A stretch of DNA of 64,000 nucleotides from Profundicola chukchiensis (lineage in GTDB: Bacteria; Bacteroidota; Bacteroidia; Flavobacteriales; Weeksellaceae), in contig NZ_JANAIE010000003.1 of the NCBI RefSeq assembly GCF_029664245.1, positions 124,001-188,000 of the forward strand, written 5' to 3'. The number at the start of each line of letters is the position of its first letter. Position 1 is the first letter of the stretch. The notes under the pieces were generated by a model. The model worked only from the letters and a program-made list of their open reading frames with translations, was not told where the DNA came from and did no database searches. Shown one piece after another: positions 3,494 through 42,241 of the stretch. The position numbers were made by a program, and so were the translations under genes.

Positions 3494-3509
3494 GCAGTTT
3501 TAAGTTTAA

Positions 3510-8895: not shown

Positions 8896-8901
8896 AGGAG
8901 G

Positions 8902-8947: not shown

Positions 8948-8970
8948 TGATATTAAAATCCTCTTAAAAA

Positions 8971-10458
8971 TTAATCTAAGTGTGGATTGTTTTGAATCTC
9001 AGACTGAGGAATATCCAATGTTAAGCGAGGATCATTATATTGGAATGACTCACCAGCGAAGAATAAGTGGTTAGCACCACGTGTTCTTGTTTCTTGGTTA
9101 CGCTTCATAGACCAATAAGTTTTTCCTTCACCCCATAACTCAATTCTAGTTTGAAGTCTAATCTCATCTAATAAAGCTTGTCCTGATAATGCATCAATAT
9201 AAGAAGCATCTTCAACTCTGATTTCCATCAAGTCTTTTAATGCTTGACGCGCACCAGCTTCACCTCCTTCAGCACCTGATTTTGCAGCTGTTTCAGCATA
9301 CAATAAGTACATCTCCTCAATTCTCATATAGATGTAGTCAGTAACAACACTTCTTTGACCACCTGATACACGATCAGGAGCATAGAATTTACCAGTTGGT
9401 TTCTTTTGACCTAAACCAACGAATTGTTTCTTTCTAACATCGTCTGATGAAATTTGAGCATATAAATCATTATCGATTGTCTTAGGATCTCCTGCCCAAG
9501 CATAAGAGTAAGTGTACTGGTCTACTTGACCCCACCAAGAAACTAGGTCTAATCCCATTTCTAAAGTAACGTCTTGACCCCACATCCAAGCTGGTGAATT
9601 AACATCATTAAATCCACCGCCAGAAGCAGTTGCAGCATCATAAGCTAAATCTTCAGCTGATAATAATGGGAAGTTACCTTCATCCATAACTGCTTTAGTT
9701 ACAGCAGCAGCTTCAGCATTACGACCCACAGCAGCATAAGCATAACCTAAAATACCTCTAGCAACATCTTTGTTGATGTCTCTTTTGTTTGATCTTGGAC
9801 CATTCTCTAATAAGTCAACCGCTAATTCTAAATCAGCAATAATTTGGTTATAAACCTCACCTGTTGTACTTAATGGAAGCGCATCTAAATTTGCTTCTAA
9901 CATTAATGGAACAGCTGGACTACTTAAATCACCATTGTCATTAACATAAAGGTGCATTAAGTTTAAGTAAGAATACCCTCTAATTGCTAATCCTTGACCT
10001 AGTTTAGCTCTTGATTCTCCGTCCTCTGGAAGAGCATTTAAATCATATCCACCAATTAGTGTGTTAGCTCCTCTAATGATTCTATAATAGTATCTCCAAG
10101 GCATGTAACTAGAGTTTGAAGTATAATCTACTGTTGCAGTATAGTTAGCAATGTAGCTATACCATCCATAAGTATTACCTGCCAATACCATATCACTTCC
10201 TAACATATCATAATAGATATCCCAGCTTTTTTGACCGAAGTCATCATGTCTAAGGTTTGTCCCCCCAGACCCAACAGTATACATTGTATTATACAATCCT
10301 ACCAAGTATCCATCTAAAACCTCAGGATTACTTTGTCCCGCATTATTAATATCCTCCGAAGATAATTGGTTCGATGGTCTTGTTTCTAAATAATCTTCAC
10401 TACAAGACACAAGTCCCGCTGCGAAAATAAATAAAGAAATTTTTATTAAATATTTCAT
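8971..10458 (-). CDS. SusD/RagB-family outer membrane lipoprotein
   Basis: A 495-aa surface lipoprotein with lipobox LVSC near residue 19 and the family start CSEDYLETRPSNQLS. Conserved SusD stretches include GQGLAIRGYSYLNLMHLY, the TPR-like part GILGYAYAAVGRNAEAA and the C-terminal RIELWGEGKTYWSMKR. SusD proteins bind substrate at the cell surface and form the lid of the partner SusC channel. The gene lies 11 nt after the SusC gene at 10470-13682, so the two form a pair. No degradative enzyme is adjacent, so the substrate cannot be named. Confidence 0.93.
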   Translation of the reverse strand: MKYLIKISLFIFAAGLVSCSEDYLETRPSNQLSSEDINNAGQSNPEVLDGYLVGLYNTMYTVGSGGTNLRHDDFGQKSWDIYYDMLGSDMVLAGNTYGWYSYIANYTATVDYTSNSSYMPWRYYYRIIRGANTLIGGYDLNALPEDGESRAKLGQGLAIRGYSYLNLMHLYVNDNGDLSSPAVPLMLEANLDALPLSTTGEVYNQIIADLELAVDLLENGPRSNKRDINKDVARGILGYAYAAVGRNAEAAAVTKAVMDEGNFPLLSAEDLAYDAATASGGGFNDVNSPAWMWGQDVTLEMGLDLVSWWGQVDQYTYSYAWAGDPKTIDNDLYAQISSDDVRKKQFVGLGQKKPTGKFYAPDRVSGGQRSVVTDYIYMRIEEMYLLYAETAAKSGAEGGEAGARQALKDLMEIRVEDASYIDALSGQALLDEIRLQTRIELWGEGKTYWSMKRNQETRTRGANHLFFAGESFQYNDPRLTLDIPQSEIQNNPHLD

Positions 10459-10469
10459 TTTTCTAATTT

Positions 10470-13400
10470 TTAAAGTTTAACTCTTAGACCAAACGTAATG
10501 TTAGACAATGGAGAGTATTGATATGTATCAGATCCACCTGTAAAACTTGCAGAAGGATTGAATCCATCTCTCTCAGAGAATAACCAAAGGTTATCACCTT
10601 GTACATACATTCCTAATTCAGCCAATCCCATTCCTGAGATCATATCAGTTGGGAAATTATACCCAATTCTCACGTTATTTAAAGCAACATAGTCAGATTT
10701 TGTTAAGAATCTAGTTGACGCAGAAGTAAAGTTAGTATCTCCTGTAATGTTGTTTGATAATCTTGGTACGTTAGTAACGTCACCTGGTTGTTGCCATCTT
10801 TGCTCGATGTCTTGGTGCCAGTTGTTTCCTCCAAGTTCAGTGTTTCTCATTAATCCTGCATAAGCACTATCATAAGAATAACCACCAAAGCTATATAAGA
10901 ATTGCGCACTTAGTTCGAAATTCTTGAATCCAGTAGCCAAGTTAAATGCACCACGTACATCTGGAATAGCAGTTTTGTCAATAAATTTCTGAGTTGCATC
11001 AGTATAAACTGTAGTAGTTGTCATTGCAACATTAGCAGAAGAATTATTAGACATATAGTCATACATAGAAGAAATTCTAACATCACCTTCATCAAACTGA
11101 CCGTTTCCGTTTACGTCATCATAGTACATATTCCACATAGCAGCACCAGTTTGAGTATCAACTCCAGCCCACTCACGTAAGTAGTAGTCATATAAAGAAC
11201 GTCCAGCAGCTCTACCGTAAGAACCAGCAATATCAATAAGTTTTCTTTCTCCTGTTCCAAGCTCAATTGGCATTTCTAACAACTCGTTGTGTAACAACTC
11301 ACCATTAAATCCAACATTTAAGAAGAAGTTCTCTTTTCTTACAACATCAGCGTTTACGTTAAATTCGAAACCAGCGTTAAATAATTCACCATCATTCATG
11401 TTGAAGATTGCACCACCAGAAGATAAGTGTAGTCTTGATTCAAATAATAAATCTGTAGAATTCTTTCTATAGTAATCTAAATCGATATTAACTCGATCAA
11501 AGATTCTCATTTCAGCACCTACTTGGAACATTTTTGCACTCTCCCAAGTTAAGTCAGGGTTACCAAATGTAGATTGCGCGAATCCATACTCACCGTCCAT
11601 TGCACTTGAGTATAAGTCAGCCCAAGGATATAATCCTAAACCTCTTTGCTCACCTGTTGTACCATAAGAAGTTTTTAACTTCAATCTGTTGAATACATTT
11701 TGATTTAACATGAAGTCTTCTTTAGACAACATCCAAGCTAAACCAACAGAACCGAATTCACCCCATTTTTCATTTCTAAATCTTGAAGAACCATCAGCTC
11801 TCATTGTTGCAGTAACAAAATATTTTCTAGCAAAGTCATAGCTTAACTGACCAAAGTAACTTTCAATTGTATAGTCATTTGTATAAGATGCCATAGAACC
11901 GAATTGGTTAGCATTGTTCCACTCTGGTAAATCAGGAATTACTAAACCAGATCTATATCCTAAGATATACTTATCTTCTAAAGCATTGTTCTCGTGACCT
12001 GCTAAAATCTCTAAGTTATGGTTAGAACCAAATGTTTTAGCATATCTCAACATTTCTAACATATTGTAAGAAAGTTGTTCGTTGTTTACTTTATAGATAC
12101 TACCTCCTGAAGTTGCAGCCGAACCATAGTATGGGTTGCTTAAGTCATTGTAGTTATCATTCAAGAATTGAGAACCAAATCTTGTTTCTAAAGTTAAACC
12201 GTCATATAATTTAAAGATAAAAGATGCACTTGTATTAATGTCGTGTCTTTTAGCGTTGTTTAAGTTATAGTGAGCATCTGCAATCGCGTTAGTGTTAGCA
12301 CCGAATCCACGTCCTGCACCTGCACCAAATCCGTAATCATACTCATATCCACCAAAGATTGGCTCAGGAATTTTATTTCCATCAGCATCTCTTGTAAATA
12401 ATGGGTAAATAGAAGGAATGTTATCAACGAACCAGAATACACTTCCTGAATCCTCAGACTGTCCGTTCATATTCGTATCAGAGAATGAATATGATAAATT
12501 CACATTTGCATCCATCCAAGGAGCAACTTCGTGAGAAACATTCAATCTTGTTGATAAACGATCGAAGTCAGATTTAACTGAGTATCCTTTTTCATCTAAG
12601 TAAGAGAATGAAGAGTAGAAAGTAGTTTTATCTGAACCACCACTAAATCTAATTGTATTCTCTGTTCTGATTCCTGGGCTAAATGCATAATCTTCCCAAT
12701 TTTCTGGCGTATACTTTCTGTTAACACCACTGTTAAATCTTCCTGTTGCAGGATCGATTAAGTTAGCACCAGCAGCATCCCACATATTATACATTGGGTC
12801 AATACCAAAGTCACCACCAAATAAGTTAGCATTAGCAAATGCAGCAGGATCTGCCTCACCATTTAATGCTCCATAGTTTTTCAAACCTTCCCATCCAAGC
12901 TCCATATAGCGCTCTGGATTCTTAATTGTATTATATCTAGGTAATAAGCTCATATTGAAACCAACTTTACTATCGAAAGTAATTTCTGATTTACCTTTCT
13001 TACCTTTCTTTGTATTAATCACAATAACACCGTTCGCACCACGTGCACCATAAATAGCAGTTGCAGTCGCGTCTTTCAAAATAACAGTGTTTTCAATATC
13101 GGCAGGGTTAATTGAGTTCAAGTAACCATCGTGTGGAATACCATCTACTACATATAATGGAGCTGTACTACCATTTACCGAACCAATACCACGAATTCTA
13201 ACTGATGAAGAACTACCTGGCTGTCCAGATCCAGTTACAACAACAACACCCGCAGACTCCCCTGCTAATGCTTTAGAAATGTCTGATACACTTTTCTTTT
13301 CAATTTGTTTAGAATCTATCACATCTGCAGTACCTGTATAGGCATCGTCAGTTGTTGATGAGTATCCTAAAGTAATCACATCAGATAAACCGATGGCTGC

Positions 13401-29444: not shown

Positions 29445-32090
29445 TTAAAATCGAAAGTTGTATTTAAAAATAATATATCTTTCGTTTAAGCTTTGTGAAT
29501 TTTGTTCTTGGTAATAATCGCTAACAAAGATTTGCTCAAAATGCTTGTTGTTAGTTAAATTTCTAGCTTCTATTGCGAAATCCCAGTTCTTATTTTTCGG
29601 ACGAAAGATAATATCGAAATCCAGGAAGTAGAATGGATTATTATCACCAAGCATCGGGTTAAAATATTCAAATGTAAGTGATGAAAACCAAAGCTTTTTA
29701 GGCTTAAAAATAAGTTTAGCTTCATTTTGAATTGAACTGTTGCTATGATAAGATTTATTAGGCAACTCCGTTCTAAAATATTGAAATTGGAATTTATTTT
29801 GAAAATTTAAAGGCATACTAAAGGCTGTATGCACAGAAAATTCAGCCAGTCCGGAATGTGCTGAATTATTCCTTAAATCTGAATTATTGACGAAATTAAA
29901 ATAGTCGAGATAGGCATAATTCCCTCCAAATCGAATAGTAGATTCAAGAAAACTCACATATTTTTCTATCAACAAGTTTGTGTTAAGATTCGTAATCGTT
30001 TTGGGTAAAATAATATACTTCGTTTGCGTGAAATCTTGTGAAATTAAATTTTCGCTAAATCTATTATTTTTGATTTTTTCGAAATTTAGAAAAAGCGTGA
30101 ATTGAAATTGTTGGTATAAATCATAATGATTAAATCCTATTTTTGAACTAAACTTGTCTTGATAGGCAAAATTCGTTTCGTTTTTTCTCAAACTTCTGTA
30201 GGAAGTCAATATAAAATTTTCGTATAAATTAGAAATAGCTTGTCTACGTTGATTAAACTGAGATTGTATATATATTTTTGAATCTGGACTCACATCATAT
30301 GAGAAACTGACTTCTGGGTTTATGATGATTTTGTTCATCAAAGAATCCATTTCCTGTTGCTGAAATTGAATTATATCATTCTTTAACTTTAAGTTTGATT
30401 TAAACTTCCATTTATTTTTGTTCCATAAATAACTTGCATACACTTGAGATTGCACTTGACTGAGCTTTATTTGATTTTCCAATGCTAATGGTGATTCAAT
30501 TTCAAGATGTGATCTTAGAAAATCTTTTTGATATTTTCCGATAAAACCTAAAGAATATTTATGTAATTTCTTATTAACTCCAAGAAATGATAAATTTACA
30601 AGACCAATATTTCTGTCTGTTTTAGCAAATTGATGTGCATCTTCGAAATTTATATTTTCGTTGATATCATGATTTAAATCTTGTGACATATCAAAATACT
30701 GAGGTGATGAGTTTTGGGCAAAGAGCAAGATCATTTGCAGCACCTGACGTAGGTTTAATTTATGCGTATAATTCAACTGGTGTTTATGAAAATACGTATT
30801 TGATTGCAAGTCAGTTGATATATTTGAATTCAGAAAATTCTTTTTCAAAAGATTTGAAGTATTGATTTTTTCATCAATCCATTTACTTTCCCATTCCCAC
30901 ATAGATTTCTCGGATTGAGACCATGTGATTTTTGAGTCTCCATAAAATGTTTGGGGTTTTTTCTGAATTATTTCATTGGCGTAAGTAGAGAAATCTTCTT
31001 GGTTCTCAAAATTATATTTAACCAAACTTGTATTATGCAGATCTAATTTATCTTGCAAATAATTAAAGTTAATTCTGGCCGTGGTGGCATTATTTAATTT
31101 AAAAACATCATTCACGCTTGCGAAAAAAAGCTGATTTCTTGTGGCTCTATCTTGACTTAGTCTACTTGTAAAAACTTTTTCGGGGATTGGCTTATTAGAA
31201 ATAAAATTCGAAACTTCTTGTTGTTCTCTGGAACTTACAAAAGAAAAGTAATTCCAAGGTGTATTATTTTTCCCGGTATTATTATAAGAAAGACTATTGA
31301 AATTCTTATTTCGATGATTTAATAAAATTGTATTTATTCTGGCCTCGTATCTGTCTTCTATTCCATAACCAAGATTTGCATTGCCTGACAGATCATGAAT
31401 ACCTTTTTTTAATTTTAAATTAAGTGCAACTGCTTGGCTGTCTTCAATACCATCCAATAACTTATTTTCACTCCAATTTTCTACGGCTTGAACTTGATCT
31501 ATGATTCCGACAGAAATATTCTTGCTACCCGTAACATAGTTATAGCCAAATAAATCATCACCATCCAAAAGCAGCTTACTGATTTCTCTACCTTTATATT
31601 TAATAGTCCCATTTTCTGCAACATCTACACCTGGAAGTTTTTTTAATAAATCTTCAACTACCCTTTCAGAACCATCCTTATAGCTATCTGCATGATAAGA
31701 TGTTGTGTCGTTTTTTACACGTATAGATTTTGGTTTTGCCTTAACGACAATATCTTGCAAATTAATTAAGTCCTTTCTCAATTCGAAATTAATGATTTGC
31801 GAAGTGTTTTGATGATTCAATGCTTGTATTTCGCTAGCAAATCCGTGCTTTGAAATCATTAAACTGTATTCACCTAAGGTTAAATTCTCTAAGGATATAG
31901 AATATTCGCCTTGTTTGTTTGTGGTATCAAATAATAGAACTTTATTTTCATCATCTATAACTTCCACAATGGCAGAACTAATACCTATTTGGGTTTCGAA
32001 GTCAATGACAATTCCTTCTAAATTCTGCGCGAAGAATGTAGAAATAATTCCCCCATAAAGAAAAACGACGAAATATAGTATTTTCTTCAC
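29445..32090 (-). CDS. TonB-receptor-like outer membrane beta-barrel protein at the end of the GLPGLI array
   Basis: An 881-aa protein with signal peptide (to FFAQ, about residue 22) and a carboxypeptidase-regulatory-like domain (LEGIVIDFETQIGISSAIVE). A plug-like domain follows (ERVVEDLLKKLPGVDVAENG, GREISKLLLDGDDLFGYNY), then a beta-barrel of about 600 residues ending in FKYNFRF. In many flavobacteria such proteins neighbour GLPGLI genes. No TonB box is obvious. It begins 9 nt after the GLPGLI gene at 32100 and is the last gene of the array, so it may be the outer-membrane partner of the whole set (inference). Confidence 0.85.
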   Translation of the reverse strand: MKKILYFVVFLYGGIISTFFAQNLEGIVIDFETQIGISSAIVEVIDDENKVLLFDTTNKQGEYSISLENLTLGEYSLMISKHGFASEIQALNHQNTSQIINFELRKDLINLQDIVVKAKPKSIRVKNDTTSYHADSYKDGSERVVEDLLKKLPGVDVAENGTIKYKGREISKLLLDGDDLFGYNYVTGSKNISVGIIDQVQAVENWSENKLLDGIEDSQAVALNLKLKKGIHDLSGNANLGYGIEDRYEARINTILLNHRNKNFNSLSYNNTGKNNTPWNYFSFVSSREQQEVSNFISNKPIPEKVFTSRLSQDRATRNQLFFASVNDVFKLNNATTARINFNYLQDKLDLHNTSLVKYNFENQEDFSTYANEIIQKKPQTFYGDSKITWSQSEKSMWEWESKWIDEKINTSNLLKKNFLNSNISTDLQSNTYFHKHQLNYTHKLNLRQVLQMILLFAQNSSPQYFDMSQDLNHDINENINFEDAHQFAKTDRNIGLVNLSFLGVNKKLHKYSLGFIGKYQKDFLRSHLEIESPLALENQIKLSQVQSQVYASYLWNKNKWKFKSNLKLKNDIIQFQQQEMDSLMNKIIINPEVSFSYDVSPDSKIYIQSQFNQRRQAISNLYENFILTSYRSLRKNETNFAYQDKFSSKIGFNHYDLYQQFQFTLFLNFEKIKNNRFSENLISQDFTQTKYIILPKTITNLNTNLLIEKYVSFLESTIRFGGNYAYLDYFNFVNNSDLRNNSAHSGLAEFSVHTAFSMPLNFQNKFQFQYFRTELPNKSYHSNSSIQNEAKLIFKPKKLWFSSLTFEYFNPMLGDNNPFYFLDFDIIFRPKNKNWDFAIEARNLTNNKHFEQIFVSDYYQEQNSQSLNERYIIFKYNFRF

Positions 32091-32099
32091 AAGACCTTC

Positions 32100-32837
32100 T
32101 TAATAAACTATTCCATTACCCGTTTGTAGCGATGGATATATAATCTCCGCCTGATTTATTTTATAGTAAGAATCGAAGGAATGATTTTCTTTTTTAGATT
32201 TTTGGGATTTAATATAATTATCATGAACACGAATAAACCTATCTTGAAAATCTGAAAACTCCATAAATTCTAAGGATAAATAATCTTCTGCTTCTTGCCT
32301 GAATTCGTTTTCATCTAATTCTGAAATAGATTGAAGACTATATTCAATAAAATCATCATCGGATTTAACATGTATAATTAACCCTGGCAATCCTTTGAAC
32401 TTCCAAGGTCCTTGGCTAATTTTGATTTCGTTGCTGAAACACGCTGTATATTTCCTACCCCTGAATTCTGTTGTTGCAATTTGACAAAGATGCTGATTTA
32501 CACTGTCCATTTTCTGTGTTAGATTCCATTTCAAGTCAGGTTCATCTACCACATTCAAATATTTTCCAAACAAAATCTCTTGATAATAATGTGTGTTTGC
32601 GATGCTATAAAACTTGCGTGGTCGAGAAGATTGAACAATAGAAACTTCCTCCATTGAATTCGAATCAGCATAACCAGTATATTCCCACTGACTATAATCT
32701 TCAGATATTTTTAAATCAAAATAAGAAATGAATGTGTTTGGAAAAACATTCATTTCATATGAAACCTTAATTTCTTGCGCTTCTAAAACAATTTGATATC
32801 CAAAAGCTAGCAAAATAAGATATTTTATTTTTTTCAT
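32100..32837 (-). CDS. GLPGLI family protein, single domain (array unit 5)
   Basis: A 245-aa exported protein with a signal peptide of about 20 residues and the exact family motif GLPGLI at 149-154, preceded by the typical TEFRGRKY and GPWKFK stretches (TIGR01200). The function of the family is unknown. It lies 3 nt after the frameshifted small peptide gene and 9 nt before the outer membrane protein gene, so all three form the last unit of the array. The length is that of a normal single-domain member, making it the least altered GLPGLI protein here. Confidence 0.92.
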   Translation of the reverse strand: MKKIKYLILLAFGYQIVLEAQEIKVSYEMNVFPNTFISYFDLKISEDYSQWEYTGYADSNSMEEVSIVQSSRPRKFYSIANTHYYQEILFGKYLNVVDEPDLKWNLTQKMDSVNQHLCQIATTEFRGRKYTACFSNEIKISQGPWKFKGLPGLIIHVKSDDDFIEYSLQSISELDENEFRQEAEDYLSLEFMEFSDFQDRFIRVHDNYIKSQKSKKENHSFDSYYKINQAEIIYPSLQTGNGIVY

Positions 32838-32840
32838 TAT

Positions 32841-33102
32841 TTAATCAAGATCATAATTTCCAGAATCTACTTCAAAATCATATAATTTGTTATTAGCTGC
32901 TACTGATGCTGCATCACACGCTTCTCTTCTGGTAGTTGCACATTCTGTTGCTGTTGCTGATTCACCTGTTTCGGGATTTACTACAGTTCTTGTGCAACAT
33001 TCACTTAAAATTATTTCTTCATTTATAATTTTAACGTCATTCCCTGCAAAAGACAATACACCAAAGCTAATAAAAGCCGTTGTAAAAAAGTAAATTTTTC
33101 AT
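32841..33102 (-). pseudogene. Small exported Cys peptide with frameshift in its signal peptide (array unit 5)
   Basis: From ATG at 33102 the frame reads MKNLLFYNGFY and stops. Removing one T from the T6 run (33084-33089) restores MKNLLFTTAFISFGVLSFAG, a perfect signal peptide like those of its paralogues, fused to an 86-aa peptide. The mature part has Cys35, Cys36, Cys54 and Cys62 (restored numbering) and the motif ECATTRREACDAA, matching DCKTARKKA and SCARKKA in the sister peptides. Without the change only an internal TTG start at 33056 is available, giving 71 aa and no signal. It may be a pseudogene, a phase-variable gene or a sequencing error. Confidence 0.65.
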
Positions 33103-33202
33103 AATAATTATATTTTATTGATTAATATGAATAGAAAATAGAAAATAGAAAGACAAATTATTTCCGACTTATTTGCATTTAATTCTTAATATTTATCAAC
33201 AA
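33103..33202 (-). repeat. Array leader/promoter repeat, copy A (most diverged)
   Basis: Shares with copies B-E the order: AT-rich leader with AATCAATAAAAT, TCTATTTTCTATTTTC-like tract, AATAATTTG, and AAGTCGGAAATAATTTG. The distal TTGTCAACAG part is only partly kept (ATCAACAAC). It lies directly upstream of the unit 5 peptide. Confidence 0.75.
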
Positions 33203-33237
33203 CATCGTGAAGATAACCATTTAATAACAATTTTAAA

Positions 33238-33271
33238 ATCAAAAAACCACCGAACATCGTGAAGTGGTTTT
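33238..33271 (-). terminator. Terminator of array unit 4
   Basis: AAAACCAC/GTGGTTTT stem (33243-33250, 33264-33271) followed by T on the minus strand, 50 nt after the GLPGLI stop at 33321. Similar hairpins end units 1-3 and the atp operon. Confidence 0.82.
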
Positions 33272-33320
33272 TAGACTTATGAGAAAATAAAGATCAAGTT
33301 TAGTTATTAAAAGAAGTTTT

Positions 33321-34646
33321 TTACCATTGAATAGTTTTTAAGAACTCTGCTAATTGAACCTCATTGAGAATTTCAGTCCGTTTATTCTTAATAGGAATGT
33401 CAGGTTTAAAAACTTCGTTTTTTAATTTAACATTGTTTGCTATTACATAGTCTATTTGATCAGAAGTTTTATGTCTTGTAATACTTTTAAGGATAATTCC
33501 GGGAAGACCATATAATTTATCGGGACCATTGCTAATTTTTATCATATTTGTAAACCATGCTTCTACAGAATACTCCTGCATATCTATTGTTGCTTTTTGT
33601 ATTTTAAAGCCCAGTAAATCATCATATCTCTCATGTATTTCCCAATTAATTGGTTGAAAATTATCTTTTATAATTATCCGTTTCCCCTCTATTTCCATTT
33701 CATTTAAATAAACACTATCCAACAAATTCTTGTAGAATGTTCCTGAACTTTTTATTCTGCCAAACTCCGTCAAACTTTGATTATTATTAATCCGCTCTAA
33801 ATACTTGTAATTGGATTCGCTAAAATTGCAACTCAACATAAAGTTAGAATTAAGTGTTTTTTCTTTATGATACTTTTCATTTTCTTTATATGTAAATTCA
33901 GAATAAACATCGTACACAATTTCAATATAGGGTTCAATATTCAAATCATAAATTTCAATTTCATCAGAATGATAAAATACAGGGTTTTTAAGATCCACCT
34001 GATTATTCCAAAATCTTAACTTAGAACGCCCTAGCAATTCGTTCCATGACATAGCATTTGCAATATCCAAGTTTGAGGTGATTGATTTTTGAGTGTTAAA
34101 ATCTATGCTTGTTGCCACGAACTCTATTCTTTTATTTTTTTCTACTACACTTAATATTAGCCCAGGTAATCCACTAAACTTAAAAGGTCCATCCTTGGAT
34201 TCAATTTCTGGACAATAGAATACTTCATATTCTCTTCCTCTAAATTCAGTAATAGCTTTCTTGCATAAATAGCCCAATATATACTTACTCTCATTGATTT
34301 TTTTCCATACAAAACTATCGATGTCATCAACTTGTATTTTATTTTGCAGATTTATAAAATGGGCTTCTGAAAAAATTTTATTTTTATTAAAATCTTTAAA
34401 AATCTCAAATACATAGTCAATAGTATCACCTACGATTTGACTAGCGTTATTTATGAACAAAGTATTTTTATCTAGGATTTTGTCGTTAATTAAAAAAATT
34501 GATTCCTTGGAGGTTGAATATAACTCTGTTTTAATCGGTTTTTCAATTAATGATCTAGTGTCGTTTAAATCATATTTGACATGAATGACATCTTGAGCAT
34601 ATAATTTAGATAGAAGAAATAGTATTAATATAAAAGAATACTTCAT
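33321..34646 (-). CDS. Tandem double-domain GLPGLI protein (array unit 4)
   Basis: A 441-aa protein when started at the ATG at 34646, giving signal peptide MKYSFILILFLLSKLYAQ; the longest frame adds nine non-signal residues. Two GLPGLI domains lie in tandem: TEFRGREYEVFYCPEI then GLPGLI at 159-164, and a second with EAWFTNMIKISNGPDKLYG then GLPGII at 380-385. The normal family length is about half this. The second domain carries the altered motif. A strong hairpin separates it from the small peptide gene upstream. It shares the tandem arrangement with the unit 2 protein, so these two are probably recent paralogues. Confidence 0.88.
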   Translation of the reverse strand: MKYSFILILFLLSKLYAQDVIHVKYDLNDTRSLIEKPIKTELYSTSKESIFLINDKILDKNTLFINNASQIVGDTIDYVFEIFKDFNKNKIFSEAHFINLQNKIQVDDIDSFVWKKINESKYILGYLCKKAITEFRGREYEVFYCPEIESKDGPFKFSGLPGLILSVVEKNKRIEFVATSIDFNTQKSITSNLDIANAMSWNELLGRSKLRFWNNQVDLKNPVFYHSDEIEIYDLNIEPYIEIVYDVYSEFTYKENEKYHKEKTLNSNFMLSCNFSESNYKYLERINNNQSLTEFGRIKSSGTFYKNLLDSVYLNEMEIEGKRIIIKDNFQPINWEIHERYDDLLGFKIQKATIDMQEYSVEAWFTNMIKISNGPDKLYGLPGIILKSITRHKTSDQIDYVIANNVKLKNEVFKPDIPIKNKRTEILNEVQLAEFLKTIQW

Positions 34647-34659
34647 ATGATCTTTGATT

Positions 34660-34688
34660 AAAGGTAGTTCCAAAAGGAACTACCTTTT
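34660..34688 (-). other. Intra-unit hairpin between peptide and GLPGLI gene
   Basis: A 12-bp perfect stem AAAGGTAGTTCC (34660-34671) and its complement (34676-34687) with a 4-nt loop lies in the 50-nt gap. The T-tract on the minus side is short (TTTAATC), so it may be a partial terminator or an mRNA stabiliser, raising peptide over GLPGLI expression. Confidence 0.6.
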
Positions 34689-34696
34689 GCTAATTA

Positions 34697-34993
34697 TTAA
34701 GTAAATGATGAACTTGGAGGTTGGGGGTCTGTTGGGGCTGGCTGCAATGCTTCTTGTGCTTGTTGATGCGCTTTTTTTCGAGCCGTTTTACAATCACCAG
34801 CCATAGAACAAAAAGTACCATGAGTTGCATATACACAGTATTCACAAGGAGGTAATTCCACACTACTTGCAATTTTAATAACCTCGACTACCTCAGTTTC
34901 GAGCTTTATTGAATTTGTTTCTAAATTCCCCATGGAAGCAAAAGCAAATGTTCCTATGAGCATAAACGCTAGAGTAAAAAATAAATTTTTCAT
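34697..34993 (-). CDS. Small exported Cys peptide (array unit 4)
   Basis: A 98-aa peptide with signal peptide MKNLFFTLAFMLIGTFAFAS. The mature part has four cysteines (Cys50, Cys53, Cys62, Cys68), the motif DCKTARKKA (67-75) and a Pro/Gln/Ser-rich tail. The signal peptide is nearly identical to those of the other array peptides, whereas the mature part is different. I know no family for it. It is first in its unit, just after leader repeat copy B, and precedes a double GLPGLI protein, which may be its partner. Confidence 0.75.
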   Translation of the reverse strand: MKNLFFTLAFMLIGTFAFASMGNLETNSIKLETEVVEVIKIASSVELPPCEYCVYATHGTFCSMAGDCKTARKKAHQQAQEALQPAPTDPQPPSSSFT

Positions 34994-35110
34994 AATAATT
35001 ACATTTTATTGATTAATATGAAACGAAATTAGAAATTAGAAAAACAAATTATTTCCGACTTATTTGCATTTATTTTTTAAAACTTGTCAACAGTTCAATA
35101 AAAATAAGCT
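34994..35110 (-). repeat. Array leader/promoter repeat, copy B
   Basis: About 115 bp closely similar to copies C, D and E, from AATCAATAAAATG next to the start codon, through TAATTTCG and AAATAATTTG, to CTGTTGACAAGTTTTAAAAA on the minus strand. It occupies the promoter and 5' leader position of unit 4. Confidence 0.88.
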
Positions 35111-35132
35111 TTTATTACTAATCTACCAAATC

Positions 35133-35161
35133 AAAAAACCACCGAACAGTGTCAGTGGTTT
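35133..35161 (-). terminator. Terminator of array unit 3
   Basis: AAACCAC/GTGGTTT stem (35136-35142, 35155-35161) with T after it on the minus strand, about 60 nt past the thioredoxin-like gene. Confidence 0.78.
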
Positions 35162-35222
35162 ATTATTATTTTTCTCGATTTAAATACTAAAAAAACTTCA
35201 ATCCTTATAACATCTTATTTGA

Positions 35223-35786
35223 TTACTTCGAATCCAAAACTTGCTGGATTTGATCTAAATAATATTTTTCATCTTTTAAATACGTGGAAGAAATTAGTAA
35301 ATTATTGTCTTTGGCAAAAAAAAGTATTAAAGAAAGTCCATAATCTTTAATTTCTTTAGAAATATTTTCCACAAACGAAATATATTTCTTTTTAAACCTT
35401 TTTGAGTGCTTATTGGATATATTAAATATAGGACCTTCATAACCTGCTTCTTTCAGCCTATACCGAATTCTATTAAATTCACTGGTATTATTTTCATCTT
35501 GTGCCGTTATCAAATAAAAATCAATCTTACTCTTATTTCTTGTCACCAAATCAAGTACTTTTGGCAAAGTTTCTACACAAGGCTTGCACCAGGCTGCATA
35601 TGTATAAACCAATTTATATTCAGAATTTCCCACATTCAATAGCGAATCAAAATCATCATTATCAATTAAATACACATTATAATTCTCAATATCTGCAACC
35701 TCTACATCATTGAACCTTATAACATCAAGTTGTTGACTTTGCGCTTTTAAACTAAATAAGATTAAGAAAAAAAATATAATTCTCAT
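35223..35786 (-). CDS. Thioredoxin-like exported protein (array unit 3)
   Basis: A 187-aa protein with signal peptide MRIIFFFLILFSLKAQSQ and a thioredoxin fold with active site WCKPC (Cys67, Cys70) in YAAWCKPCVETLPKVLDLV. This is the TlpA-like architecture of periplasmic disulfide reductases. It lies 15 nt after an unknown lipoprotein in the one array unit that has no GLPGLI gene. Because the neighbouring exported peptides have two to four cysteines, a role in forming or reducing their disulfides is a reasonable guess, not shown. Confidence 0.8.
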   Translation of the reverse strand: MRIIFFFLILFSLKAQSQQLDVIRFNDVEVADIENYNVYLIDNDDFDSLLNVGNSEYKLVYTYAAWCKPCVETLPKVLDLVTRNKSKIDFYLITAQDENNTSEFNRIRYRLKEAGYEGPIFNISNKHSKRFKKKYISFVENISKEIKDYGLSLILFFAKDNNLLISSTYLKDEKYYLDQIQQVLDSK

Positions 35787-35801
35787 ACTACATGTTTTTA
35801 T

Positions 35802-36338
35802 TTATTCCAAGGTAATTCTATATCCACCTTCATTTCCAATTGAAGTGTCCAAAGCATAACTATTTGCTTTTATATTAAAATCTCTATTATACTCTGGTAT
35901 AAACCCCGTATTTAAATCATTTTCTACAATTAAATAAGTTAAATCATTTGGCACGTCTTTAGGAACAGCATTTTGTAATTCTATTTCAAAATAATAACTA
36001 CCATCCACGTCCATCTTTATCTCTACAATTTTATAAGTCTCGTCACTCCCAACATTTTGCTCGTATTCTAATAGTGTTGGAAACCATTTAAAATCACAAA
36101 AACCTAAACCACTCAAACATTTCTTCTTAGGACGATGAATCTGCACTGAAAATATTATAAGATTAATACCATCATTACCATCTTTATTGAACATTGCAGT
36201 ATTAAATAAATCTTCACCTTTTAATTTTATAAACTCAGAAATATTATCTTCATTATAAATAGATGAATTTATTTCATCAGTATCACATGAATAGAAAAAA
36301 GCAATAATACAAAGTAAGAAACATAATTTAATTTTCAT
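35802..36338 (-). CDS. Unknown lipoprotein (array unit 3)
   Basis: A 178-aa lipoprotein: MKIKLCFLLCIIAFFYSC ends in a lipobox at Cys18. The 18 extra upstream residues of the longest frame come from the leader repeat, so ATG at 36338 is chosen. The mature part is acidic and Asn/Asp-rich, with a central KKKCLSGLGFCDF carrying two cysteines seven apart. I recognise no family. It takes the position held by the small Cys peptide in the other units, behind leader repeat copy C, and is followed by a thioredoxin-like gene. Confidence 0.72.
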   Translation of the reverse strand: MKIKLCFLLCIIAFFYSCDTDEINSSIYNEDNISEFIKLKGEDLFNTAMFNKDGNDGINLIIFSVQIHRPKKKCLSGLGFCDFKWFPTLLEYEQNVGSDETYKIVEIKMDVDGSYYFEIELQNAVPKDVPNDLTYLIVENDLNTGFIPEYNRDFNIKANSYALDTSIGNEGGYRITLE

Positions 36339-36452
36339 AATAAATATTTTTAATTGTTTATAATGAAACGAAAATAGAAAATAGAAAACCAAATTATTTC
36401 TGACTTATTTGCATTTATTTTTTAAAACTTGTCAACAGTTCAATAAAAATAG
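36339..36452 (-). repeat. Array leader/promoter repeat, copy C
   Basis: It matches copies B and E through TATTTTCG, CAGAAATAATTTGG and CTGTTGACAAG on the minus strand. Only the segment next to the start codon differs (ATTATAAACAATTAAAAATA), in keeping with the different first gene of this unit. Confidence 0.85.
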
Positions 36453-36476
36453 GTTTTTCTTACCGACATAGCAAAT

Positions 36477-36505
36477 AAAAAAACCACTGAATTTTACTCA
36501 GTGGT
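36477..36505 (-). terminator. Terminator of array unit 2
   Basis: ACCACTGA/TCAGTGGT stem (36483-36490, 36498-36505) with a 7-nt loop and A/T-run, about 60 nt after the GLPGLI stop. Confidence 0.82.
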
Positions 36506-36568
36506 CTTATGCTTTTTAAGCTTTTAATTATATTATTTATCCAAAACGTTTGCTCCTCCTGCACAAAA

Positions 36569-37957
36569 CTACTCACTCGTATCTACACCATAGCCTTGTA
36601 ACAGCCTTCTTCGTTGATAGGCCTCCTCTTGAGCTTGTTGAAATTGATCTAAAGTTACTGATTTTCCTTTTTTAGGAATTTTAATTTGGGAACTAGAAGC
36701 TATATCAATTGAAGTCGCATCATAAAAAGTTATTTCACTTGAGTTTCTATTTAACCTCTTAACCTCCATTCGAAGGATTAATCCAGGCAATCCACCAAAA
36801 AAATCAGGTCCGTTCGAAATAGGAATATCGGGCGTGAACCAAGCGATAATTTTTTGACCTTTGTATTCTATGATTGCTTTCCTAACATTATAGCCTAAAA
36901 ATACATCCTTCTCATCACTGATTTTCCAATTAAATCCAAGTATTTCATCTTCAATCAAATATTTTCTACCCATCAATTCCTCATCCTGCATAAGTTTTCT
37001 ATCAATTAAATCTTTATATATTATACCACGTTGAAAAACATAACCATAACTTGAAAGTCCTTGATTATTGATGATTTTTTCTACATAAAAATAATTTGAC
37101 TCTACAGGTGTCAGAATAAGTTTAAAGTCAGAATCTAAAGATTTATCAATTTCATTTTTTTCGGTAAGTTCAATATAAACTTTGTAATTAACTTCTACTG
37201 CGTAATCAGAGTTCAACTCATATCTTTCTATTTCATTTTCTAATCCACTAATCATAATGTATTGATTACAACATCTTTTTTGCTCTACAATATCCTTTGA
37301 ATATAATATATTCGCTTTGTCTATCAATGTATTCCAAGATAAATACATATTATTTTTAAATGGATTTTCTAAGTTTTTATTATTTTTTTCTATTTTTTTG
37401 GCTTTAATGTGTAATTGGTTTTCGAGATCAATTACCTCTAGAATAAGCCCCTTTAATCCGTGAAACTTCCATGGACCAACCGCTGAATTAAATTTCTCTG
37501 TATAGTAAATCTTATACTTCCTTCCTTTATATAAAATGGAAACTGCACTGCATTCATATCCTAAAATATTTTTCACATCTTGGGGATGCCAAGCTATTAT
37601 CTCGAAATCCTTTAAATCTTGCTTCAAAATAACACCATTCTGATAAACAATTTGTGATTTTGAAAACATCAAATCATCTTGAAAGCTTTTCCATACATAA
37701 TCTGTGAATGGCACCAACTCACTTTCAATTTCATCATTTTCATTAAATTTAAAAGTATTTAGGTCATAAGTCTCTCCATTCATTTCATACAATGAATAAT
37801 TCTCATTAAAATATAAGAAAGCATTTATGGTATCTTTAGATATTTCATAATCCTTTTGGGTATAATGAGCATATGCTATTTTATATTCACTGCTTAAAGT
37901 TTGAGAAAAAGATAAAGTGAAAAATAAAATAAAAATTTGTGATATCACTAATTTCAT
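36569..37957 (-). CDS. Tandem double-domain GLPGLI protein (array unit 2)
   Basis: A 462-aa exported protein with signal peptide MKLVISQIFILFFTLSFSQ. The first domain has LYKGRKYKIYYTEKF and the altered motif GLKGLI at 167-172. The second has EYKGQKIIAWFTPDI and intact GLPGLI at 389-394. The double length and matching domain order make it a paralogue of the unit 4 protein, but here the first domain carries the changed motif. A CC pair (RCCN, about 229-230) lies between the domains. It is 58 nt after the small peptide gene. Confidence 0.88.
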   Translation of the reverse strand: MKLVISQIFILFFTLSFSQTLSSEYKIAYAHYTQKDYEISKDTINAFLYFNENYSLYEMNGETYDLNTFKFNENDEIESELVPFTDYVWKSFQDDLMFSKSQIVYQNGVILKQDLKDFEIIAWHPQDVKNILGYECSAVSILYKGRKYKIYYTEKFNSAVGPWKFHGLKGLILEVIDLENQLHIKAKKIEKNNKNLENPFKNNMYLSWNTLIDKANILYSKDIVEQKRCCNQYIMISGLENEIERYELNSDYAVEVNYKVYIELTEKNEIDKSLDSDFKLILTPVESNYFYVEKIINNQGLSSYGYVFQRGIIYKDLIDRKLMQDEELMGRKYLIEDEILGFNWKISDEKDVFLGYNVRKAIIEYKGQKIIAWFTPDIPISNGPDFFGGLPGLILRMEVKRLNRNSSEITFYDATSIDIASSSQIKIPKKGKSVTLDQFQQAQEEAYQRRRLLQGYGVDTSE

Positions 37958-38015
37958 GTCATTCTAACTAAAGTTGTTCTGTAAAAGTATTAAATTCCTC
38001 ATAATGCGAAAAATC

Positions 38016-38276
38016 CTAAGTTGGATTTCCAGGTTCTTCTGGAGCAGGTGTCAAATCCTCGAGAGCTTTTTTTCTTGCACAAGACTTTGCTTCATCATAT
38101 GTAGCAGCCTCACAACAATAATTTCGTCCACCGACTTTTACACAATAAATAGTTGGCTTGCTCACTTCTCTTTGTAAAAGAGAAAGGGATTCATGACCTT
38201 TCAAAGGATATCCATTTCCTACAGAACTCAATAATCCACAGCCAAAAAACATTAAACTTAAAAATAAATTTTTCAT
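38016..38276 (-). CDS. Small exported Cys peptide (array unit 2)
   Basis: An 86-aa peptide with signal peptide MKNLFLSLMFFGCGLLSSVG. The mature part has Cys45, Cys54, Cys55 and Cys66, the motif SCARKKA (65-71) and a Pro/Glu-rich end (TPAPEEPGNPT). The Cys spacing and the ARKKA motif match the unit 4 peptide, whose tail is also Pro-rich. No known family is recognised. It follows leader repeat copy D and precedes a double GLPGLI gene. Confidence 0.75.
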   Translation of the reverse strand: MKNLFLSLMFFGCGLLSSVGNGYPLKGHESLSLLQREVSKPTIYCVKVGGRNYCCEAATYDEAKSCARKKALEDLTPAPEEPGNPT

Positions 38277-38390
38277 AATAATTATATTTTATTGATTAAT
38301 ATGAAACTAATATAGAAAATAGAAAAACAAATAATTTCCGACTTACATGAATTTATTTCTTAAAACTTGTCAACAACTCAATAAAAATAG
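38277..38390 (-). repeat. Array leader/promoter repeat, copy D
   Basis: It matches copies B, C and E along its length, with TATATTAG in place of TATTTTCG. It is closest to copy E: the similarity continues past the block through GTTACCAAGAT(G/A)CCAAAC into the terminator. Confidence 0.85.
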
Positions 38391-38414
38391 GTTTTTGTTA
38401 CCAAGATGCCAAAC

Positions 38415-38446
38415 AAAAAAACCATTGAATATGGGGCAGTGGTTTT
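38415..38446 (-). terminator. Terminator of array unit 1
   Basis: AAAACCATTG/CAGTGGTTTT stem (38418-38427, 38437-38446, one G-T pair) with a T-rich minus-strand end, 33 nt after the GLPGLI-like stop. Confidence 0.82.
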
Positions 38447-38479
38447 AGGATTATTTAATAAAAGAAAGATATGTGAGCA

Positions 38480-39205
38480 TCACAACACCAGACCTCCCTT
38501 TCTTTCTCTCCTTTCTTTGTTCAATCTTTCAATTTCAGCATAATATTCTGTCAATGAGATTCTATTATTTCCTTTTAATTCTTTTAGCTTTGGATTTTTT
38601 ATGGAAGAAATATCGCTTAATATAACCTCATAATTATTATTAAAGTTAACTTTTACAATTAGGCCATGTAAACCTACTAACCCAAATGGTGCAATATCAG
38701 TAGCATAGCTTTCATCAATCCAAACGACCGTAACGATTTCTTTAGGACCATTTAAACCAGTTTCATAACGCCGATTCACTGCAATTTTACACAATCTACC
38801 ATTTACTATCTCGGTTTTATTTGTCATTTCCCATTCAATTTCATCGAAATCATATTCAATTATCACCCGTCGTCCATTTAAATCTTTCATGTTTTGAGTT
38901 TTCTTCAGTTGATAATCAACAAAAAACTCTCCTTGCGATTTTCTGAACACATCATGTAAACTTATTTTAAATTCTTGGGAGTTATCAATTTTATAAATAG
39001 GATAAAAGTAGCTTGCATTATTTGCATATTTAAGTTCAAATTGGATGCTATCCGTTTCCTGTTTTAAGAACATTCTCATATTACTGCTCTCATCTTCGGA
39101 AGATTCGAATTTATAAGCTTGATAAATAAAGAAATTAGGCTCATTTGTTTGCGCAATTAATGATGTATAGAATAGTAAAATAAAGATTTGAAAAGTTTTA
39201 AACAT
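38480..39205 (-). CDS. Diverged GLPGLI-family protein (array unit 1)
   Basis: A 241-aa protein with signal peptide MFKTFQIFILLFYTSLIAQ. The family motif is altered to GLHGLI (178-183, in FGLVGLHGLIVKV) and the preceding TEFRGRKY-like part is replaced by VNRRYETGLNGPKEI, so the assignment rests on position, length and the remaining motif. It ends in a basic RRERKGG tail. It follows the unit 1 peptide by 35 nt. Together with the damaged peptide upstream, this unit looks the most decayed of the array. Confidence 0.78.
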   Translation of the reverse strand: MFKTFQIFILLFYTSLIAQTNEPNFFIYQAYKFESSEDESSNMRMFLKQETDSIQFELKYANNASYFYPIYKIDNSQEFKISLHDVFRKSQGEFFVDYQLKKTQNMKDLNGRRVIIEYDFDEIEWEMTNKTEIVNGRLCKIAVNRRYETGLNGPKEIVTVVWIDESYATDIAPFGLVGLHGLIVKVNFNNNYEVILSDISSIKNPKLKELKGNNRISLTEYYAEIERLNKERRERKGGLVL

Positions 39206-39240
39206 TTTATTTCAATTTATTTTTGTGACATACAATAAGA

Positions 39241-39483
39241 TTAAGCGCGATCGTGGATTTCCGTTAATTCTGCAGAAGATAGACTTGAGTTCTCATGCTC
39301 AAAAAAATTAACCACATTATCAGCATATTCCACACATTCTTGATTTTTATTATTGAACTTAACCTTTTGTAAAGAAGTATAGGAAATATTTTGTGATGAG
39401 TTTAAGAAATCATTTTCTTCTTGAATGCTATTCGTTTTCGAATTTGCAAAAGATAGAATAAAACACCCAAATAATAAAGCCAT
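39241..39483 (-). CDS. Small peptide with truncated signal sequence (array unit 1)
   Basis: An 80-aa reading frame starting at an internal ATG (MALLFGCFILSFANS). Compared with the sister genes the leader lacks about 18 bp: AATAAAATTTATTTTTT joins sequences that elsewhere flank the start codon. Restoring them gives MKNLFFTMALLFGCFILSFA in frame, matching the family signal peptide. The surviving frame lacks the basic n-region, so export is doubtful. The mature part has one Cys (QECVEYADN) and no ARKKA motif. It may be decaying. Confidence 0.6.
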   Translation of the reverse strand: MALLFGCFILSFANSKTNSIQEENDFLNSSQNISYTSLQKVKFNNKNQECVEYADNVVNFFEHENSSLSSAELTEIHDRA

Positions 39484-39600
39484 TGTAAAAAATAAATTTT
39501 ATTGATTAATATGAAACGAAAATAGAAAATAGAAAAACAAATTATTTCCGACTCATTTGCATTTATTTTTTAAAACTTGTCAACAGTTCAATAAAAATAG
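39484..39600 (-). repeat. Array leader/promoter repeat, copy E
   Basis: Nearly identical to copies B-D from TTGATTAATATGAAACG outward (plus-strand reading), but the segment nearest the gene has lost about 18 bp including the ancestral start codon. It begins directly downstream of the atp operon terminator. Confidence 0.87.
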
Positions 39601-39625
39601 CTTTTAGTTACCAAGATACCAAACG

Positions 39626-39657
39626 AAAAAAACCACCAGACAATGTCCAGTGGTTTT
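39626..39657 (-). terminator. Terminator of the ATP synthase operon
   Basis: AAAACCAC/GTGGTTTT stem (39629-39636, 39650-39657) with an inner GAC/GTC pairing and A-run on the minus-strand exit side. It lies 25 nt after the atpG stop and resembles the array terminators. Confidence 0.8.
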
Positions 39658-39682
39658 ATACTTTTTTCAATTTTATGATGGG

Positions 39683-40546
39683 TTATCCATCCAAAGCGTC
39701 TGCTCCTCCTACGATTTCTAAAATTTCGTTGGTAATTGCTGCTTGTCTCGCTTTGTTGTATTGTAGCTTAAGTGCTTTTTCTAGTTCTGCTGCATTGTCG
39801 GTAGCCTTATGCATTGCCGTCATACGCGCGCCGTGTTCAGATGCATTAGAATCTAAAAGAGCTTTATATAATTGCGTCTTTAAAGTCTTAGGGATTAACT
39901 CCATTAAGATTTCCACTTTATTAGGCTCAAATATGTAATCTACGCTCGTTTCTACCTCCTGATTAGTATCTATAGAGATAGGTAAGAAAGCTTCGTTTAA
40001 AACGTCTTGATTGGCGGCATTTTTAAAATGATTATAAACCAATCTCACTTCATCGAATTCCTTGTTCTTAAATGCTTCCATCACCTGGTCTGCAATGTCA
40101 GATGAATTCTTGAAGTTGAAATCATCCCAAAGATGACTTTCGTTTTTATATACCGTGTGTTCTTTCTTTACAATATCATTAGCCTTTTTACCAATGGTCA
40201 AATAACTAACGTTTTTGCCTTTGTAATCTTCTTTAGCTAAACGCACAACTTCTTTGATAACATTGGAGTTGAATGCTCCTGCCAAACCACGATTAGAAGT
40301 CACAGCAATAATCAATACATTGCGTACCTCACGTTTTTCTGTGAAATCACCCCCTACTTCCTCGTCCATGCTCGCACTTACATTGTCCATAAGTTCGCGT
40401 AACTTGTTAGCATAAGGTCGCATTTGAATAATAGCATCTTGAGCCTTTTTCAACTTAGCTGCCGATACCATTTTCATGGCATTGGTAATTTGCATGGTTG
40501 ACCCAACAGATGTTATCCTACTACGTATTTCTTTTAAATTCGCCAT
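39683..40546 (-). CDS. atpG: ATP synthase F1 gamma subunit
   Basis: A 287-aa central-stalk subunit. The N-terminal helix MANLKEIRSRITSVGSTMQI and the C-terminal helix ASEHGARMTAMHKATDNAAE with RQAAITNEILEIVGGADAL are the coiled-coil ends that rotate inside the alpha3beta3 head. It is last in the operon, after atpA, with a 105-nt gap that holds two hairpins. A terminator follows. The length is normal. Confidence 0.97.
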   Translation of the reverse strand: MANLKEIRSRITSVGSTMQITNAMKMVSAAKLKKAQDAIIQMRPYANKLRELMDNVSASMDEEVGGDFTEKREVRNVLIIAVTSNRGLAGAFNSNVIKEVVRLAKEDYKGKNVSYLTIGKKANDIVKKEHTVYKNESHLWDDFNFKNSSDIADQVMEAFKNKEFDEVRLVYNHFKNAANQDVLNEAFLPISIDTNQEVETSVDYIFEPNKVEILMELIPKTLKTQLYKALLDSNASEHGARMTAMHKATDNAAELEKALKLQYNKARQAAITNEILEIVGGADALDG

Positions 40547-40582
40547 TGATATGGTGCCTTAAATTTTAATTTTAATTTAATA

Positions 40583-40636
40583 GTTGATTAAATCAACACT
40601 AATAAATACAACACGACACCGGTAGGCATCGTGTTG
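40583..40636 (-). other. Two hairpins in the atpA-atpG gap
   Basis: CAACACGA/TCGTGTTG (40609-40616, 40629-40636) is followed in transcription order by GTTGAT/ATCAAC (40583-40588, 40592-40597). No proper T-tract follows, so they may act in mRNA processing rather than termination. Confidence 0.45.
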
Positions 40637-40651
40637 AATTATTAAATTTTA

Positions 40652-42241
40652 TTACGCTTTGTTTTTAGCGTATTTTCCTGATAAATCATTTGCAACAGAA
40701 GTTAAAACTTGTGTTAACTCATCTGTATACTTACCAGCTTTTAATGCTGACATGGTCTCAGGGTGTTTCTGGATCAAGAATGAAATATATTCTTCTTGGA
40801 ATTCTTTTACTTTTTCTACAGGAACATTTCTCATTAAGTTATTTGTACCTGCATAAATTAAAGCAACTTGGTTCTCAACTGGCATAGGTGAGTTCACGTT
40901 TTGCTTAAGAATCTCTACGTTTCTCTCTCCCTTTCCAATTACCGCCATAGTAGCCGCATCTAGATCAGATCCAAACTTAGCGAACGCTTCTAGCTCACGG
41001 TATTGAGCTTGGTCTAACTTAAGTGTACCAGATACTTTCTTCATTGATTTAATCTGAGCTGCACCACCCACACGAGATACAGAAATACCCACGTTAATAG
41101 CTGGACGAACACCAGAGTTAAATAAATCTGACTCTAAGAAGATCTGACCATCTGTAATCGAAATTACGTTGGTTGGAATATAGGCAGAAACGTCACCTGC
41201 TTGTGTTTCAATAATTGGTAATGCTGTTAAAGAACCACCTCCTTTCACTACTCCTTTCATTGATTCTGGTAAGTCGTTCATGTTTTTAGCAACATTATCA
41301 TCACCAATAATCTTAGCAGCACGCTCTAATAATCTAGAGTGTAAGTAGAAAACGTCACCTGGATATGCCTCACGTCCTGGAGGTCTTCTTAATAATAAAG
41401 ACACCTCACGGTAAGCAACCGCTTGCTTAGATAAGTCATCAAATACGATTAAAGCAGGACGACCTGTATCACGGAAGTACTCACCAATAGCAGCACCTGC
41501 TAATGGAGCATATACCTGCATTGGAGCTGGATCGGATGCGTTAGCCGCAACAATCACCGTATAGTCCATAGCACCGTGCTCTTCTAATACAGCAACTGTT
41601 TGTGCTACCGTAGACGCTTTTTGTCCTACAGCAACATAGATACAGTAAACAGGCTCTCCTCTATCGTAAAATTCTTTTTGGTTCAAAATTGTATCAATCG
41701 CAACGGTTGATTTACCTGTTTGACGGTCACCAATAATCAACTCACGTTGACCACGACCTACAGGAATCATAGAGTCGATTGCTACGATACCAGTTTGCAA
41801 AGGTTCAGAAACAGGCTCACGGTAGATAACACCTGGTGCTTTTCTCTCAATTGGCAATTCAAATAATTCACCTTCTAAAGGTCCTTTACCATCGATTGGG
41901 TAACCTAAAGTATCAACAACTCTACCCAACATAGATTCACCTACCTTGATAGATGCAATTCTGTTAGTTCTTTTTGCTGTATCTCCTTCTTTAATCCCCT
42001 TCGATTCACCTAAAAGTACAACACCTACGTTGTCCTCTTCTAAGTTCAATACAAGTCCTTCTAAACCAGTACTGAATTCAACTAATTCACCGTATTGTGC
42101 GTTTTCTAATCCATAGATACGTGCAATACCGTCACCTACTTGTAGTACGGTACCAACTTCAGACAGTTCAGCGTCTGAGTTGAAATTAGTTAATTGTTGT
42201 TTTAATATAGCTGATACTTCAGCTGGATTGATTTCTGCCAT
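40652..42241 (-). CDS. atpA: ATP synthase F1 alpha subunit
   Basis: A 529-aa regulatory nucleotide-binding subunit of the F1 head. The Walker A loop is GDRQTGKST (171-179); [20 protein letters not shown] and [20 protein letters not shown] are highly conserved, and [20 protein letters not shown] contains the conserved arginine. It lies 12 nt after atpH. The catalytic beta subunit gene atpD is absent from this operon, as is usual in Bacteroidota, where atpD-atpC sit elsewhere. Confidence 0.98.

Follow-up and report, generated by a model that had tools for sequence, protein, structure and literature searches.

Sequence comparison ties a repeated noncoding block to the atpG site of Profundicola chukchiensis rather than to the genes behind it

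In a 64,000-nucleotide stretch of the Profundicola chukchiensis genome (contig NZ_JANAIE010000003.1, positions 124,001 to 188,000; hereafter the window, whose numbering we use), five similar noncoding blocks follow atpG, each at the head of a short gene unit. Comparison with related genomes indicates that the block is a property of the site and not of the genes. Our preferred explanation, to which we give a probability of about 0.62, is that gene units were inserted at atpG with long duplications of the target and that the array then grew via the shared block. Moving away from atpG, the order is B5-peptide-GLPGLI, B4-peptide-GLPGLI, B3-lipoprotein-thioredoxin-like, B2-peptide-GLPGLI, and B1-peptide-GLPGLI-OMP, where B1 to B5 are the block copies and OMP is an outer-membrane protein. 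So four units contain a small Sec-type secreted peptide and a GLPGLI protein, while copy 3 heads no such unit but a lipoprotein and a thioredoxin-like protein.

An earlier reading of the sequence alone had reported five copies of a conserved promoter or leader block of about 115 bp. A repeat search and an alignment bear out the number: there are five 193-nt copies, all on the minus strand, with 66-100% identity to the reference copy. The extent had to be revised, as the block is about 190 nt long and reaches upstream through a terminator-type hairpin, but its edge on the start-codon side lies where the sequence-only reading had put it. The copies are B5 (39473-39665, directly after atpG), B4 (38263-38455), B3 (36325-36517), B2 (34980-35172), and B1 (33089-33281), which is the most diverged. 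Pairwise identity is 71-85% over about 180 nt. In blastn searches of the 2.6-Mb genome, the blocks match each other with E = 1.6e-40 to 8.8e-57, and beyond the five copies nothing matches below E = 0.01. The exact 13-mer CGGAAATAATTTG occurs three times in the genome, every time within the array (its position is occupied by CAGAAATAATTTG in copy 3 and by CGGAAATTATTTG in copy 4), and a genome scan found the heptad core at background level outside the array. If the block had been present throughout the genome before unrelated genes, this would have spoken against the earlier claim, but there are exactly five copies and all of them are here.

From 5' to 3', the block consists of a terminator-type hairpin, a TTGACAAG-like stretch, GTCGGAAATAATTTG, a T-rich tract, an AT-rich leader, and the start codon. 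The hairpin is ACCACTG...CAGTGGT followed by a T run, and the T-rich tract carries a 7-nt repeat (TAWTTTC twice, ending in TAWTTTCG). By sequence, then, each block joins the previous unit's terminator-type hairpin to a promoter and leader and to the start codon of the next unit. In B5, the hairpin is at 39657-39629 and the core at 39550-39517, followed by the leader; the ancestral ATG was lost through an 18-nt deletion between AAAAT repeats, and a downstream ATG is used. A scan for intrinsic terminators (a GC-richer stem and then a T run) found 10 in the region, versus 3.1 expected, and these include the hairpins of B5, B3 (36508-36480), and B2 (35161-35136), which fold at -12.3 to -15.6 kcal/mol. 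The hairpin of B1 (about 33272-33240) is weaker, at -9.1 kcal/mol, and that of B4, whose core reads CGGAAATTATTTG, TATATTAG, has decayed (-4.6 kcal/mol). A riboswitch or small RNA was considered and rejected, as positions 32000-41000 have no Rfam match at E up to 1 to any known structured RNA.

The genus is represented by three genomes, one per species: this one (G000), Flavobacteriaceae bacterium Ap0902 (G001), and the metagenome-assembled genome S5R_St_19 (G002). G001 has one block and G002 has two, each directly after atpG. The promoter core is present in all three genus genomes, always downstream of atpG, and in none of 197 other genomes of the family (a reversed control gave no matches). 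Over the whole block, G002's two copies are 71% identical, and copies from this genome are 51-58% identical to those of the congeners. The hairpin is retained across the species although its sequence is species-specific (CCACTG, CCGGGCC, or GCCATTG). The genes, on the other hand, have relatives at other places. At G002:C2 there are relatives of unit 1 (48% amino acid identity for the GLPGLI protein and 54% for the peptide) and of unit 5 (62% and 45%), and at G002:C3 there are relatives of unit 2 (69% and 55%). None of these relatives in G002 has the full block; the longest match is 41 nt around the start codon.

Could the array be a plain tandem duplication, in which one unit and its promoter were copied in place, the coding parts then evolving quickly under positive selection while the promoters were kept for co-regulation? 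The units do run head to tail with the same layout, the GLPGLI proteins are paralogous, and the promoter core is conserved in the congeners. However, because the closest relatives of units 1, 2, and 5 lie elsewhere and lack the block, simple tandem duplication fails to explain the array: pairwise identities point to array units grouping with loci elsewhere, and not with each other. Also, the genes of unit 3 are not homologous to those of the other units, and the hairpin sequence, which has no regulatory reason to be conserved, is uniform within a species yet different between species. We consider this alternative unlikely.

The sequence-only reading had contrasted the well-kept blocks with strongly diverged genes, which is correct (the GLPGLI paralogues of the array share about 22-38% of their amino acids, versus 71-85% identity for the blocks), and it attributed the contrast to recent conversion or to selection for co-regulation. 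Recombination or conversion is supported because the blocks are species- and site-specific while orthologues of the genes elsewhere are block-free. As for co-regulation, it is plausible that the five units are regulated together; for selection on the promoter core, the one hint is that the core is conserved in the two congeners. Conversion and co-regulation probably both contribute.

Remnants of atpG and repeats of gene ends indicate that the units most likely entered at the end of atpG. Unit 4 and B3 are separated by a spacer and a degraded atpG 3' end (36499-36560, minus strand; 76.6% identity over 64 nt, E = 2e-6), and B3 extends upstream into this remnant. The score of this match is 30, as compared to a maximum of 17 among 300 shuffles. 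In G002, such a remnant lies between the two units (81% over 132 nt, E = 8e-30). In a genome from another family (G205), the atpG 3' end is also repeated (78% over 146 nt, E = 1e-27). In a scan of the order, such remnants were rare, and decayed ones would escape that scan. As a separate observation, the duplication in G205 (locus L124, G205:C12:122000-134500, at 7837-11258) comprises the last 28 codons of atpG and the terminator, repeated about 2.4 kb downstream; it encloses small secreted-type proteins that are unrelated to GLPGLI, and there is no recombinase there.

These remnants bear on another alternative, in which the array is of long standing and gene conversion alone homogenized its blocks, with no insertion of cassettes at atpG. 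Homogeneous blocks that are specific to each species are a textbook sign of concerted evolution. But conversion alone leaves unexplained the atpG 3' remnants at junctions, the block-free orthologues, and the gene-end repeats that surround homologous units (discussed below), so we think it rather improbable.

When loci that are homologous to the array's OMP are compared to themselves, many genera show direct repeats on both sides of the peptide-GLPGLI-OMP unit. We counted a unit as bracketed if it had a repeat (40 nt or longer, with 75% identity or higher) with one copy at most 300 nt from the stop codon of the OMP gene and the other at most 4 kb away on the far side. By this rule, 12 of 45 OMP open reading frames (ORFs) that are homologous to the array's OMP are bracketed; among 155 controls, which are other ORFs with 500 amino acids or more, 3 are bracketed (Fisher p = 1.3e-6). 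Two of the 12 brackets are duplicates of array-type blocks and one is unresolved; without these, the count is 9 of 45 (p = 9e-5). The repeats are gene ends, among them those of clpB (L045), an mfd-like helicase (L127), a RecO-C domain gene (L137), an RF-1 domain gene (L035), a small methyltransferase (L135), an SPFH gene (L049), and a pyridoxal-phosphate enzyme (L027). At L028, the repeat comes from a Mg-chelatase-like gene, of which it is the 5' end. Homologous units are thus often bracketed by long direct repeats of what would be the target, as expected for insertion with long target duplication. One bracketed GLPGLI-OMP unit, in G001 (L177, G001:C12:221000-234000; 160-nt repeats at 3383-3542 and 8387-8546), adjoins a noncoding stretch of about 3 kb (1-2993) made up of tandem repeats whose period is near 77 nt.

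Putting this together, the block would be the intergenic module that follows atpG, acting as a terminator for the unit upstream and providing a promoter and AT-rich leader for the unit downstream. Cassettes of a secreted peptide, a GLPGLI protein, and an OMP, as well as similar units, would enter by recombination in the 3' end of atpG and leave a duplicate of the target. Later units might join or be swapped through the shared terminator-promoter block. Recombination through the shared block would place each unit behind the site's own block, whatever its gene. Ongoing recombination, along with selection on the promoter, could then hold the blocks similar even as the genes behind them diverge. 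We infer the order of events, a RecA-type homologous mechanism, the donor DNA, and an active promoter that drives the five units together.

Several results argue against insertion at atpG followed by growth through the block. An atpG remnant is kept at just one of the window's four internal junctions, no recombinase-like ORF or integrase was seen among the ORFs of the array, and no circle was found. Among the three genus genomes, we saw neither movement between strains nor an empty site. Two-thirds of the homologous OMP loci lack a bracket, and the bracket rule was framed after several cases had been seen; if we consider only the loci that were fetched later, 3 of about 14 are bracketed (p ~ 0.008). 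A broader proposal is that these units are widespread mobile cassettes of the Bacteroidota that lack an integrase, that duplicate a long part of the target when they insert at the ends of housekeeping genes, and that build integron-like arrays, each with a site-specific promoter block that includes a heptad switch. This is tentative, and we would bet against it.

The genus contains other arrays with blocks of their own. In this genome, a second peptide-GLPGLI array (L073, G000:C43:328001-348000; the array is at about 328.4-342.6 kb) contains another private block, of about 390 nt, in five copies with 65-85% pairwise identity. These blocks end at about 840, 2257, 4545, 6949, and 12616 of the locus, and they share a layout of TAAATTTGG, (TTTTAGA)n, TTTTTG, about 32 nt, and ATG, with n = 1, 4, 4, 2, and 2; one copy has ATC in place of ATG. 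A third, small array at about 409-411 kb of G000:C32 (L172, G000:C32:402000-421000) has two noncoding block copies that are 83% alike (7511-7783 and 8940-9220), before genes for a 79-amino-acid secreted-type peptide and a 305-amino-acid protein. G001 has a private 289-nt block in two copies (85% identity; L176, G001:C1:132000-147000, at 8140-8415 and 9396-9677), each of which precedes a peptide-GLPGLI unit. In total, the three genus genomes have 21, 10, and 15 GLPGLI matches.

The putative promoter within the atpG block can be compared with the sigma-A promoters of this genome. Upstream of genes, the Bacteroidota -7 box (TAnnTTTG) occurs 82 times, versus 24.7 expected, with a peak at 15-45 nt before the ATG; the -33 signal is weak. 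(E. coli-type promoters are not enriched, with 44 versus 50.6 expected.) The block has near matches to the -7 box at about -38 (TAWTTTCG) and at about -58 (TAATTTG). TAWTTTCG has one mismatch and its geometry is kept in the genus; it is preceded at 13 nt by TTTG, which is shorter than the usual -33/-7 spacing, although the -33 signal is itself weak in this genome. Both candidates are below the genome median on a sigma-A position weight matrix derived from this genome. The sequence-only reading had taken CGGAAATAATTTG as a possible operator or alternative-sigma site; across the genus, the conserved part of CGGAAATAATTTG is its last part, ATTTG, alone, plus the heptads that follow it.

The block might instead chiefly serve regulation, as an operator or as a promoter for an alternative sigma factor, and its 7-nt tandem repeat would be a spacer whose phase variation turns units on and off. 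In favor of this are the poor sigma-A scores of both candidate boxes and a layout that recurs in two arrays of this genome with unrelated sequence, in which ATTTG is followed by T-rich heptads over about 21 nt and then by about 30 nt to the ATG. Repeats of seven nucleotides in promoters are phase-variable at H. influenzae hmw1A and hmw2A (PMC8262952), and the repeat number likewise varies between paralogues of the second array. Here, though, there are just 1-4 repeats, and the number is constant in the atpG array; in fact, it is the same in all eight of the atpG-site blocks of the three genus genomes. An alternative-sigma motif, TAnnTTGY (SM5), was reported for F. psychrophilum (PMC9723704), and TAATTTGT in copies 1, 2, and 5 fits it, but the motif is absent from B3, B4, G001, and G002. 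And while a regulatory role accounts for the conservation of the core, it does not account for the hairpin region or for the remnants at junctions, so we think it very unlikely to be the main explanation. Two other kinds of site were considered and rejected. The PhoP regulon of R. anatipestifer includes five GLPGLI genes (site TTTAACA; PMC9603813), but we did not see TTTAACA conserved in the block. Boxes of the extracytoplasmic function type (GGAA/CGTT) are spaced too far apart by eye, and GGAA is not conserved in G001 or G002. Separately, a promoter with the layout of the second array (TAATTTGG-TTTTAGA-TTTTTGA) lies before a gene for an unrelated 270-amino-acid envelope-type protein at G000:C21:315554 (L169), so this style of promoter is not confined to GLPGLI units.

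Insertion with long target duplication is known for restriction-modification genes of H. pylori (Nobusato et al. 2000, as cited in PMC1643837). The resemblance is that a gene unit without its own recombinase has long direct repeats of the target locus on both sides. The cargo (peptide-GLPGLI-OMP) and the phylum differ, and here most targets are ends of housekeeping genes and tandem arrays have formed at atpG; furthermore, the H. pylori case rests on comparing strains, whereas we have one genome per species. In V. cholerae, arrays of effector and immunity genes of the type VI secretion system also have successive units stacked at one site, and both homologous and homology-facilitated illegitimate recombination have been discussed (PMC5361080). 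Those arrays retain older units. Our array has no type VI secretion genes, and its conserved element is a putative terminator-promoter rather than an effector gene. It also differs from an integron cassette array in that no recombinase-like gene was seen among its ORFs.

GLPGLI genes are common in the Bacteroidota, and we know of no function for them. In the limited literature that we found on the family (TIGR01200 / Porph_ging), neither the block nor cassette-like behavior is described. The signs that GLPGLI genes travel in units with small secreted cysteine-containing peptides and an OMP, bracketed by the ends of neighboring genes, suggest that these units are cassettes with rapid turnover. 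We speculate that they could be used in competition or for surface display. The gene-end brackets may be a simple genomic signature for finding more of them, and the array would be a natural case of promoters that are conserved through their site rather than their gene.

The genes of the array are all on the minus strand, as is atpG (ATP synthase gamma, 39683-40546), whose 3' end would be the recurrent insertion point. Unit 5 has an 80-amino-acid secreted peptide (39241-39483), whose orthologue at G002:C2 lacks the block, and a GLPGLI protein (38480-39205) that is 62% identical to its orthologue there and under 29% identical to its paralogues in the array. A search with defense-system profiles (PADLOC) gave a single match, of this protein to UzuA, which is weak (19.2 bits, E = 1.7e-4) and probably due to chance. 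Unit 4 has an 86-amino-acid secreted cysteine peptide (38016-38276) and a 462-amino-acid GLPGLI protein with two domains, Porph_ging and PNGase_F-II_N (36569-37957). In unit 3, a lipoprotein-like ORF of 178 amino acids (35802-36338), for which a search of the two congeners found no homologue, precedes the thioredoxin-like protein (187 amino acids, 35223-35786). Unit 2 has a 98-amino-acid secreted cysteine peptide (34697-34993) and a two-domain GLPGLI protein of 440 amino acids (33321-34643), and its relative at G002:C3 is a lone unit. The peptide gene of unit 1 (32846-33102) has a frameshift close to its start, within a run of T, and there are intact relatives in G002; it is followed by a 245-amino-acid GLPGLI protein (32100-32837) and by the OMP (881 amino acids, 29445-32090), which has a CarboxypepD_reg-like N-terminus and ends the array. 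All four GLPGLI proteins of the window pass the 50-bit cut-off of TIGR01200 (95, 192, 189, and 59 bits). By inspection, the peptides carry Sec-type signal sequences; they also have conserved cysteines, and none matches Pfam or NCBIfam above the cut-off. In other genera, genes for XRE-type regulators lie by GLPGLI units (L054, 6290-6643; L055, 6749-6904; L127, 12196-12555); they point away from the unit and might be cassette regulators.

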